From a virus: a DNA stretch of 53,379 nucleotides. Below the pieces are notes generated by a model. It saw only the letters and a list, made by a program, of their open reading frames with translations, did no database searches and was not told the origin of the DNA. Shown here one piece after another: positions 1 to 53,379 of the stretch (position 1 is its first letter; every line of letters starts with the position of its first letter). The translations under genes and the position numbers were made by a program. Location of the stretch: the IMG/VR virus record IMGVR_UViG_3300046167_000321, positions 1-53,379 of that record, one strand, 5' to 3'.

Positions 1-779
1 TGCTGCATCACACGTTTGATTGTGCGGCCAGCCATCCCGGCCTCTTCCAATGCCAGCTCGGCCTCGGCTGGGTTGATCTCATTAAGCGCCCAGCGCTGCC
101 AGATGCTCACACGCTCTTTGAACCGCTCGGCCTCGGCTGTCACGAATGCTTTGACCTTGTTAGGATTGAACCCGGAAGTGTGGCGGAATACTGAAGTTTC
201 GAATTCGCCAAACGTCATCCCATTGTCGCAATACCAATCAATGGCCCCGGCATTACAGCGGATCGATGTTCCGCCGAAACCATTGACCACAGCAACCCGG
301 AATTTCAGGGAAGTGCTGCGCCCGGTAAGCTGGCGAATGTCTGCGCCGATCTCAGGAAAAGAATATTCAAACCGGGTAAAACGGCCATTGCGGCTGATGC
401 TTTCCCGCAGCTCGATGTTCTGCAGCGCTCGTGTAGGCAGCGCAGCCTCGCAGCCCTCGGCCAGTTTGGCGGCCAGATCCCCGTTCTGTGCTATTGCGTA
501 CCGTTCACCTACTACACCCAAGGCAGCCAGATTATCTGTGCGGCGGATCAGGCGGCCCACATTCTCAGGAACCCCGGAGAATTCCCCGTGGTGGGTGTCG
601 GTCCCGTTCATCTCATGAAACAGCTCGACAGCCTCGGCTGTGAACCCGGTTTGATCGAGCGCAGGAAACAGGCGGCGCATTGCCGGGCTTGGCTGCTCGG
701 CCTGTTGGCGTTCATGCAGCTTCTGAGCCAGCGAAATAATTTCAGGTGAAAGGTGGCTTAAATTTGTGAAAGTGTTCAT
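1..779 (-). CDS. DUF932 family protein, N-terminal part (cut by window edge)
   Basis: This encodes the first 259 residues of a DUF932 protein, a family common on plasmids and phages whose biochemical role is not established. The start is the ATG at 779, preceded by AGGAGA about nine bases upstream; its frame runs off the left edge without a stop. The text matches family features by recall: an N-terminal helical region, a central part with repeated Gly/Thr motifs (FRVAVVNGFGG, then RCNAGAIDW) and a charged C-terminal helix. The missing C-terminus is found at the right edge (53204-53379), so the gene is probably about 319 aa and spans the circle junction. It lies directly downstream of a hammerhead-like RNA and uses a leader nearly identical to that of the DUF2958 gene. 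Base composition is richer in G+C than in the replication and structural genes. Confidence 0.85.
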   Translation of the reverse strand, partial: MNTFTNLSHLSPEIISLAQKLHERQQAEQPSPAMRRLFPALDQTGFTAEAVELFHEMNGTDTHHGEFSGVPENVGRLIRRTDNLAALGVVGERYAIAQNGDLAAKLAEGCEAALPTRALQNIELRESISRNGRFTRFEYSFPEIGADIRQLTGRSTSLKFRVAVVNGFGGTSIRCNAGAIDWYCDNGMTFGEFETSVFRHTSGFNPNKVKAFVTAEAERFKERVSIWQRWALNEINPAEAELALEEAGMAGRTIKRVMQ

Positions 780-805
780 TTGGTCATTCTCCTAGTTAGT
801 GGCCT

Positions 806-863
806 GTCTCATCAGTGCAGGGTGGCCATTGTCTGCAGACCGGGGCGCTGCCCCGGTTTCGAC
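806..863 (-). ncRNA. Predicted hammerhead ribozyme (type II order), copy 1
   Basis: Read on the minus strand this has all conserved hammerhead core elements in permuted order: GAAA (860-857), stem III, GUC (840-838), stem I, then CUGAUGAG (815-808). Stem III pairs A857-U839, C856-G840, C855-G841 and GGGG 854-851 with CCCC 845-842, loop of five. Stem I pairs UGCAG (837-833) with CUGCA (820-816). Stem II is only three pairs, GUC 863-861 with GAC 808-806, and is open at the outer end. Predicted cleavage follows C838. The element begins immediately after the stop codon of the upstream coiled-coil gene (864-866) and precedes the DUF932 ribosome binding site, so cleavage would separate the two cistrons. 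A second copy at 53140-53202 keeps the core and changes the stems. Confidence 0.8.
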
Positions 864-1481
864 TTAGTGATTAAACAGCCTTGCCCAGAAACCCCGGCCC
901 CGGCATTCGGCCAGACGCTCGGCCATCATTGTAATTTGATCCTCGGCCCGTGCTCGATCAGCCTCTGCCTCTTCCCGGCGCAGATATTCCTGATGCGCTT
1001 CGTTCTGCCATTTGTTGGCTATGCTGGGATCATTTAACCGGGCAATGGCTGCGGCCTCGTTTAGCTGGGCATTGGCCAGATCATGCCGGGCCTCATCCCG
1101 CTGCGCTTCCATAGATTTGCGCCCGGCCTTCTGGCCCTCATAGCTTTCTTCTAAAATGGCCAAACGATTGTTGGCAAAATTTAATTGTGCCTCGGCCTCG
1201 ACTAAACGCCGGGCCAGATCGTTGCGATCCTTCCGGGCTGATACCAGCTCGGCCCGATATAAAGAATGCACCGGGGCGGATGCTTTCAGGATCTTGTAAA
1301 TGGTGGGGATCGATACAGCGTAACTGTCAGCAATTTCTGCCACAGATGCACCGCCTTGCCTTGCCGATCTAATAGACGGGCCGTTAGCCCATGCCACCGC
1401 TGTCTTTTTAGCAACCCATTTTGTAGGGGCTTGGATGGTGTCGAAATTGTTGGCAAATCCTTTGAGTGTGATCTTGTTCAT
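864..1481 (-). CDS. HTH plus coiled-coil protein (KfrA-like architecture)
   Basis: This is a 205-aa protein with a resolvase-type helix-turn-helix at about residues 37-66 (GGASVAEIADSYAVS then PTIYKILK) followed by a long, charged, Ala/Glu/Arg-rich coiled coil from about 75 to 190. That layout resembles plasmid KfrA proteins, which bind DNA through the N-terminus and multimerise through the coil; the resemblance is by architecture only. Start ATG at 1481 follows AACTAGGAG at good spacing, the same ribosome-binding box used by DUF932 and DUF2958. A promoter of the phage's TTAAGTGT class lies at 1531-1566 and a terminator at 1587-1618, so this gene probably starts its own transcript. It could be the regulator of that promoter family, but nothing in the sequence proves this. 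Confidence 0.75.
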   Translation of the reverse strand: MNKITLKGFANNFDTIQAPTKWVAKKTAVAWANGPSIRSARQGGASVAEIADSYAVSIPTIYKILKASAPVHSLYRAELVSARKDRNDLARRLVEAEAQLNFANNRLAILEESYEGQKAGRKSMEAQRDEARHDLANAQLNEAAAIARLNDPSIANKWQNEAHQEYLRREEAEADRARAEDQITMMAERLAECRGRGFWARLFNH

Positions 1482-52776: not shown

Positions 52777-53112
52777 TTATGCTGCTATGCAGCCATCAGC
52801 CCGGGCGGCTGCGGCATACTGTGAAATAGTTTTATCAGCGGTGAAATACATATCCCGCTCGATCCCGATCCCCAGCGGCCCCTGTACTGCTTCCAGCTCT
52901 GTGATCGATACGCTGCCCAGCTCCGGGGAACCCATGCCCAGATCACACAGGCCGAAAGCAATATCGCCCTCGATCTCGGTCAGCAGCCACGTTGCAGCCC
53001 CGGCAGGATTAAAGAGCTTTACCACCGGGCGGTGATCGTCTTCGCCTTCAATCTCAGTCTTCCGGGCGTTTGCCTCGAGCTTCGTGCGGATCTCTTTTGT
53101 GATTAGTTTCAT
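52777..53112 (-). CDS. DUF2958 family protein
   Basis: A 111-aa protein: MKLITKEIRTKLEANARK, then VVKLFNPAGAATWLLTEIEGD, FGLCDLGMGSPELGSVSITEL, GPLGIGIERDMYF and YAAAARADGCI. These are the DUF2958 landmarks. The family is abundant on plasmids and integrative elements, often close to DUF932 genes, and its function is unknown. Start ATG 53112 is preceded by the cassette leader with ACTAACTAGGAGA, and a hammerhead-like RNA lies just upstream. Confidence 0.88.
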   Translation of the reverse strand: MKLITKEIRTKLEANARKTEIEGEDDHRPVVKLFNPAGAATWLLTEIEGDIAFGLCDLGMGSPELGSVSITELEAVQGPLGIGIERDMYFTADKTISQYAAAARADGCIAA

Positions 53113-53139
53113 TTTGGTCAGTCTCCTAGTTAGTGGGCT

Positions 53140-53202
53140 GTCTCATCAGTGACCCTTGCCCAAGGTGGCCAGACGCCCGGGGATTAGCCCGAGCGTTTCG
53201 AC
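53140..53202 (-). ncRNA. Predicted hammerhead ribozyme (type II order), copy 2
   Basis: Same order as copy 1: GUC stem II strand (53202-53200), GAAA (53199-53196), stem III of nine pairs (53196-53188 with 53181-53173, one G-U) closed by a six-base loop, GUC (53174-53172), stem I UGGCC (53171-53167) with GGUCA (53154-53150), then CUGAUGAG (53149-53142) and GAC (53142-53140). Cleavage expected after C53172. Stems I and III differ in sequence from copy 1 but pair in both, which is compensatory change. It begins one base after the DUF932 stop and precedes the DUF2958 leader. Confidence 0.82.
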
Positions 53203-53203
53203 T

Positions 53204-53379
53204 TTATGCAGCCATGCCGATCCGGGCCATCGCTGGGTGGCTTATGATCTGGCCCACCTCACGCTCCCGGCGATCTAATACCTCGGCCACGTTGTCGATG
53301 TTCGAGCTGTTACGAACCGGGAACAATTCGCTATTGTGGCTCGAGCGCTGTGTGAGCGCTGAATATACGGCCCACGTTG
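53204..53379 (-). CDS. DUF932 family protein, C-terminal part (cut by window edge)
   Basis: An open frame enters from the right edge and ends at TAA 53204: TWAVYSALTQRSSHNSEL, VRNSSNIDNVAEVLD, ending MARIGMAA. W..Y(S/N)A.T is the usual C-terminal landmark of DUF932 proteins. The N-terminal part is at 1-779. The frames of the two parts join only if 2 bases are missing (or one is surplus) at the cut, so the complete gene would be about 319 aa. Confidence 0.8.
   Translation of the reverse strand, partial: TWAVYSALTQRSSHNSELFPVRNSSNIDNVAEVLDRREREVGQIISHPAMARIGMAA

Follow-up and report, generated by a model that had tools for sequence, protein, structure and literature searches.

What would a self-cleaving RNA do between two genes of a phage? 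The question is raised by the window, the whole 53,379-nt stretch of virus DNA analysed here, in which a preliminary description had noticed a second hammerhead-like RNA at 53140-53202. The presence of this element (HH2 hereafter, the other copy being HH1) is confirmed by its core, its stems, its GUC triplet and an independent covariance model.

Two hammerheads around a DUF932 gene

The window is an IMG/VR record related to Roseobacter phages CRP-212 and CRP-3, the latter an HMO-2011-type subgroup II phage (PMC6918029). Both of its ends lie inside one DUF932 gene: aligned with CRP-3 gp57, the stretches 779->3 and 53377->53204 follow one another directly, except for 32 bases that are absent between them relative to CRP-3. 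Judging from the sequence, the window represents nearly the whole of a CRP-3/CRP-212-like Roseobacter phage genome, a 'linear' record opened at the DUF932 gene. Because the ends fall within this gene, HH1 and HH2 bracket it once the ends are joined, giving the minus-strand order 205-aa gene, HH1, DUF932, HH2, DUF2958. The N-terminal 259 codons of the DUF932 gene (minus strand, 3..779, continuing at 53377; PF06067, E 1.6e-6) are 92% identical to CRP-3 gp57, and the C-terminal 57 codons with the stop codon (minus strand, 53204..53377) are colinear with its C-terminus, this short piece alone giving no match in a Pfam search. The 205-aa gene (864..1481, minus strand) ends at HH1 and has homologues in all hammerhead-bearing relatives, and its product belongs to no family in Pfam or PHROGs. 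The DUF2958 gene (52777..53112, minus strand; PF11171, E 9e-42) has its start codon 59 nt beyond the HH2 cleavage site. HH1 follows the stop codon of the 205-aa gene and HH2 that of DUF932, and the leaders after the two copies are nearly identical in their ribosome-binding stretch (CUAACUAGGAGA.UGACCAAA), each running up to a start codon. Counts of promoters and terminators near the operon were not clearly above those in shuffles.

The minus-strand segment 53203-53134 (HH2) is a complete type II (stem-II-open) hammerhead. It reads AGUC GAAA C GCUCGGG CUAAUC CCCGGGC G UC / UGGCC ACCUUGGGCAAG GGUCA CUGAUGA GAC A GCCCA, with the slash marking the cleavage site. Its 5' and 3' ends both lie in stem II, a helix of 3 bp between GUC (5' strand, 53200..53202) and GAC (53142-53140). 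The stem III hairpin (53173..53196) has 9 bp, the first being the core A-U pair, and a CUAAUC loop, while stem I (53150..53171) has 5 bp and a large loop. The core is at consensus throughout, with GAAA at 53199-53196 and CUGAUGA at 53149-53143 corresponding to the CUGANGA ... GAAA of type II; the GUC cleavage triplet (53174-53172), an instance of NUH, sits at the junction of stems III and I, so that the core position predicts cleavage after it, between C 53172 and U 53171. In addition, UGGGC in the stem I loop (53162-53158) pairs with GCCCA behind stem II (53138-53134), forming a pseudoknot of 5 bp.

HH1 (minus strand, about 798..864) is likewise of type II and follows the same plan in other letters. 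Its stem III is CCGGGGC/GCCCCGG, its stem I UGCAG/CUGCA, and its pseudoknot pairs UGGCC (828-824) with GGCCA (804-800), the core position placing the predicted cleavage site between 838 and 837. In both copies stem I has 5 bp and stem II 3 bp (GUC/GAC). Much of the preliminary description agrees with these structures. All core nucleotides that it reported as kept in HH2 (GAAA, CUGAUGA and GUC) are present, the sequences bear out that stems I and III differ between the copies yet still pair, and the element does start one base after the DUF932 stop codon (UAA at 53206-53204, stem II from 53202). Its extent was correctly located but too short, since the pseudoknot had been missed and the element reaches on to 53134. 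The count of nine stem III pairs against seven is right for HH2, but HH1 has eight if A15.1-U16.1 is counted in both copies, the discrepancy arising from mixed counting conventions. For both copies, the minimum free energy structure from ViennaRNA is a non-hammerhead fold (z = -1.4 and -2.2); because this program models neither the pseudoknot nor the non-canonical core, we judged the result uninformative.

Family models recognise both copies. Against RF02276 (Hammerhead_II) of Rfam 15, HH1 scores 37.7 bits, above the gathering score of 37, and HH2 scores 34.8 bits, slightly below it (E 2e-5 in a 480-base search, E 0.0022 in the window). We attribute the shortfall to the longer stem III and stem I loops of HH2, the core of which is intact; orthologues in CRP-3 and in contigs L005, L010, L011 and L012 pass the cut-off. 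A covariance model, R1, was built from 50 hammerheads of other phages with this phage group excluded, and it nevertheless recognises HH1 (69.3 bits, E 1.8e-14) and HH2 (51.4 bits, E 4.8e-10; 215 kb searched), in agreement with the earlier hammerhead reading. A descriptor comprising the core, stem III of at least 4, stem I of at least 3 and stem II of at least 2 pairs matches the window exactly twice, at HH1 and HH2. The 400 dinucleotide shuffles of the window yielded 20 relaxed matches in total (0.05 per window), none as strong as the two copies, so that the earlier judgement of a chance match as unlikely holds. No third hammerhead was found in the window by an Rfam scan at E<=1, by the descriptor or by R1 (next best E 0.84). 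Matches to NEAT1_2, SorX, anti-hemB and ryfA lay far below the cut-offs and were set aside as chance.

Covariation and placement among relatives

A pattern scan of IMG/VR that fixed only the core and stem II matched at least 119 stretches, and the type II family is larger than the matches gathered here. Among 148 pattern matches listed, 137 also form a stem III of at least 5 and a stem I of at least 4 pairs, compared with 0 for shuffled inserts. The relative set consists of the 171 distinct hammerheads among the matches listed, 166 of which carry the GUC cleavage triplet. Covariation was computed for the structure given above on 50 distinct sequences from other phages. Paired cells amount to 90.6% vs 66.0 in shuffles, and cells changed on both sides to 232 vs 66.6; the covariation score is 0.638, compared with 0.167 +/- 0.012 for shuffles and at most 0.107 for slid registers. 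Stems I, II and III and the pseudoknot all covary across these 50 diverse phage relatives. The pseudoknot helix alone displays both-side changes at 6/6 pairs, and swapping its strands among sequences lowers the mean complementarity from 4.9 to 3.0 bp (maximum 3.3 in 300 trials). Stem II in the relatives occurs as GUC/GAC, AUC/GAU, GGAC/GUCC and AUUC/GAAU. Shared ancestry is not fully removed by the controls, but with an effect of this size and such varied pair types the structure is, as far as sequence comparison can tell, almost certainly supported by covariation. The alignment of homologues that had been suggested as a check on HH2 thus revealed a conserved core and covarying stems.

These data bear directly on whether the elements are ribozymes at all. 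A hairpin close to a stop codon, acting as terminator or stabiliser and resembling a hammerhead by chance, could be imagined from the plain GC hairpins that contig L008 carries at the same intergenic places. Such a hairpin is contradicted by the full core, the GUC triplet, the covarying pseudoknot, the E-values of the models and the shuffles, and a terminator additionally by the lack of a T-run behind stem III. We regard this explanation as hardly credible.

The position of the hammerheads between genes is as regular as their structure. Hammerhead positions were scored against same-strand open frames of 60 codons or more, with random positions from the same loci as the control. In 80% of the 171 distinct relatives among the matches listed, the element starts -6 to +12 nt from the end of a stop codon, compared with 6% of random positions; offsets of -1 to 3 account for 116/171. 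Downstream, again in 80% of these 171, an ATG with a purine triplet resembling a ribosome-binding site follows, as against 29% of random positions, the ATG lying at a median of 25 nt after stem II among the matches listed. The contrast with random positions is large despite the crude ORF calling. In most relatives the stop codon overlaps or directly adjoins stem II, which would place a ribosome terminating there on top of the ribozyme. This proximity could point to a regulated or destabilising switch, in which cleavage, as in glmS, reduces or adjusts how strongly the neighbouring genes are expressed, possibly gated by ribosomes at the stop codon touching stem II. Such a switch is unlikely, however, as the surroundings of the element revealed no conserved ligand-binding or switch domain and the associated genes are varied, mostly small unknowns.

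Hammerheads frequently occur in series. Among the 121 hammerhead-bearing locus strands listed, 34 have at least two copies, including two strands with eight, and among the matches listed successive copies mostly surround one ORF. The bracketed genes are mostly small unknowns, along with ArdA, BRO/antirepressor, RusA-like resolvase and DUF932. The two rows of eight type II hammerheads lie at L042 8127-11317 and L096 3313-6699, most of them bracketing one small gene. Up to six hammerheads in a row are found in L180 and L133, which belong to the bacterial symbiont genome of the Bathymodiolus japonicus methanotrophic symbiont.

Pairs of neighbouring copies also allow for a different product. The RNA released by the two cuts would begin with the 3' half of HH1 and end with the 5' half of HH2. 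Through stem II (GAC/GUC), these two parts could rebuild a hammerhead and ligate, yielding a circular DUF932 mRNA of ~1.1 kb. In the window, the GAC of HH1 and the GUC of HH2 do pair, with stems I and III self-contained; at least 3 cross pairs are kept in 43/56 neighbouring hammerhead pairs of relatives among the matches listed, and hammerhead-made circular RNAs are known from plant retrozymes (PMC4918200). Where neighbouring stems II differ, however, as in CRP-3, L030, L089 and L129, pairing within each hammerhead is retained, and usually only 1-2 bp of cross pairing are left. Moreover, a search for circular products by Perreault et al. 2011 (PMC3088659) was negative, and we consider circularisation very unlikely.

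Patchy presence and gene reordering

Orthologous hammerheads are found in the cultured phages CRP-3 (two) and CRP-212 (two), the GenBank records of which hold CDS features only, and in the IMG/VR contigs L009 (two), L010 (three), L011 (two), L012 (one) and L214 (three). They are absent from the whole genome of CRP-235, from half of CRP-345 including its DUF932 region, from the DUF932 regions of HMO-2011 and MJing1, and from contig L008. This patchy presence indicates that the DUF932 locus can do without the element. Where relatives carry hammerheads, L008 has plain GC hairpins in its intergenic regions (around 5980 and 7000), and so offers a natural ribozyme-less comparison.

Gene order varies as well. 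The order 205-932-2958 is shared by the window and the distant L214, the DUF932 protein of which is 36% identical, and the order 932-205-2958 is found in CRP-3, CRP-212, L009, L010 and L011. When the order changes, the hammerhead stays with the preceding gene: the CRP-3 hammerhead behind DUF932 matches the 5' half of HH2 at 94% identity, and the L011 hammerhead behind the 205-aa gene matches the 5' half of HH1 at 88%. One stem I module, UGRCCACCUUGGGCAAGGGYCA, recurs at four positions with differing stem III (window HH2, CRP-3, L010 5924 and L214 2648), so that halves of the ribozymes appear to recombine too. Near-identical translation leaders (CTAACTAGGAGA.TGACCAAATG) precede three adjacent genes (window 763-817, 1477-1500 and 53105-53145), and a leader resembling these three is also present in hammerhead-less relatives (L008). 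These leaders are possible recombination sites for gene swaps.

DUF932 is bracketed by hammerheads in at least two lineages outside the CRP group (L116/L187 and L029/L197-L199), which is an observation rather than an enrichment statistic, as the L116 and L029 lineages were found via their hammerheads and the counts are therefore biased. Across L187-L199, a hammerhead lies directly upstream of DUF932, and often another downstream, with covarying stem II (GGAC/GUCC, GUC/GAC). A weak hammerhead (27.5 bits) with a CUGACGA core and a mismatched stem II is located just upstream of a distant DUF932 gene at L228 2458-2522, and is possibly decaying.

One way to read the reordering is that the hammerheads are passengers, conserved borders for swapping accessory genes with little selected RNA function. 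The varying gene order, with each gene keeping the hammerhead behind it, and the single stem I module in four positions with different stem III would both fit. Neutral passengers, however, would not keep the core, three stems and the pseudoknot by compensatory change over such divergence, and the equal drift of core and flanks expected of them was not seen, which makes this reading quite unlikely. Tentatively, a gene and its 3' hammerhead may instead form a cassette, the unit in which phage accessory regions exchange and reorder their genes. With an RNA-cutting 3' end of its own, each cassette would yield a separate mRNA wherever it is inserted; DUF932 might have used this device repeatedly in unrelated phages.

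Proposed processing and known systems

HH1 and HH2 are probably cis-acting ribozymes that split a polycistronic phage mRNA into one-gene messages. Both would be transcribed together in one leftward polycistronic Roseobacter phage transcript, and each would cut itself once, co-transcriptionally, just after GUC. The cistron of the 205-aa gene would then end at 838 and that of DUF932 at 53172, each with the GC-rich stem III hairpin and a 2',3'-cyclic phosphate behind its stop codon. The DUF932 cistron would start at 837 and the DUF2958 cistron at 53171, each with a 5'-OH, the stem I hairpin and the pseudoknot, and with a leader of about 58 nt containing its own ribosome-binding site. The middle RNA, from 837 to 53172, would measure about 1.08 kb.

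If the ribozymes are active in vivo, as we infer, the single-gene mRNAs would have hairpin-capped ends and would lack the 5' phosphate sensed by RNase E. When proteobacterial mRNA is degraded, RNase E favours 5'-monophosphate ends, and stable hairpins make 3' exonucleases stall. Hammerhead-made ends should therefore be stable, and the likely benefit of separate cistrons would be a stability and translation of their own for each. We know of no direct test of mRNA stabilisation by phage hammerhead ends. Cistron separation is the most economical reading, and the locus is well suited to examine it. The hammerheads sit in a compact operon, and CRP-3 or CRP-212 can be cultured with the host strain FZCC0040. 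As some close relatives have no hammerheads (CRP-235, L008) and some relatives have a swapped gene order, the processing hypothesis is open to direct test.

Our literature search for hammerheads in roseophages found no earlier report, the CRP-3 genome paper (PMC6918029) does not mention ribozymes, and the records examined for HMO-2011-type subgroup II roseophages carry no ribozyme annotation. Type II hammerheads with a loop I pseudoknot, flanking single genes or short blocks in prophages, were described by Perreault et al. 2011 (PMC3088659). These authors observed in vitro cleavage for three gene-flanking arrays and cleavage in E. coli for one, and already proposed that single-gene mRNAs are the outcome. 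In 2017, a review (PMC6155905) still counted what prokaryotic hammerheads do among the open questions. The arrangement in the window is thus real and conserved, but of the kind described in 2011. Its less familiar parts, in this marine phage group, are the cassette-like behaviour and the repeated bracketing of DUF932.

With the type II family (RF02276, PMC3088659), HH1 and HH2 share the core, the open stem II permutation, the short stem II, the pseudoknot between loop I and the 3' tail, and the prophage location with several copies flanking single genes. As in its gene-flanking prophage arrays, with at least two same-strand copies around one gene or short block, HH1 and HH2 lie around DUF932; HH2 differs in scoring slightly under Rfam's cut-off. 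The triple hammerhead around ardA in Agrobacterium tumefaciens (PMC3088659) likewise consists of ribozymes bracketing small phage genes in an operon. There, the bracketed gene is ardA and cleavage in vivo was shown in E. coli, whereas the window brackets DUF932 and the 205-aa gene, with hammerheads known from their sequence. Retrozymes and viroids similarly use two hammerheads to delimit an RNA unit, but these are of type I or III topology and serve the replication of circular RNA, in contrast to the type II elements of the window, which delimit protein-coding phage cistrons.
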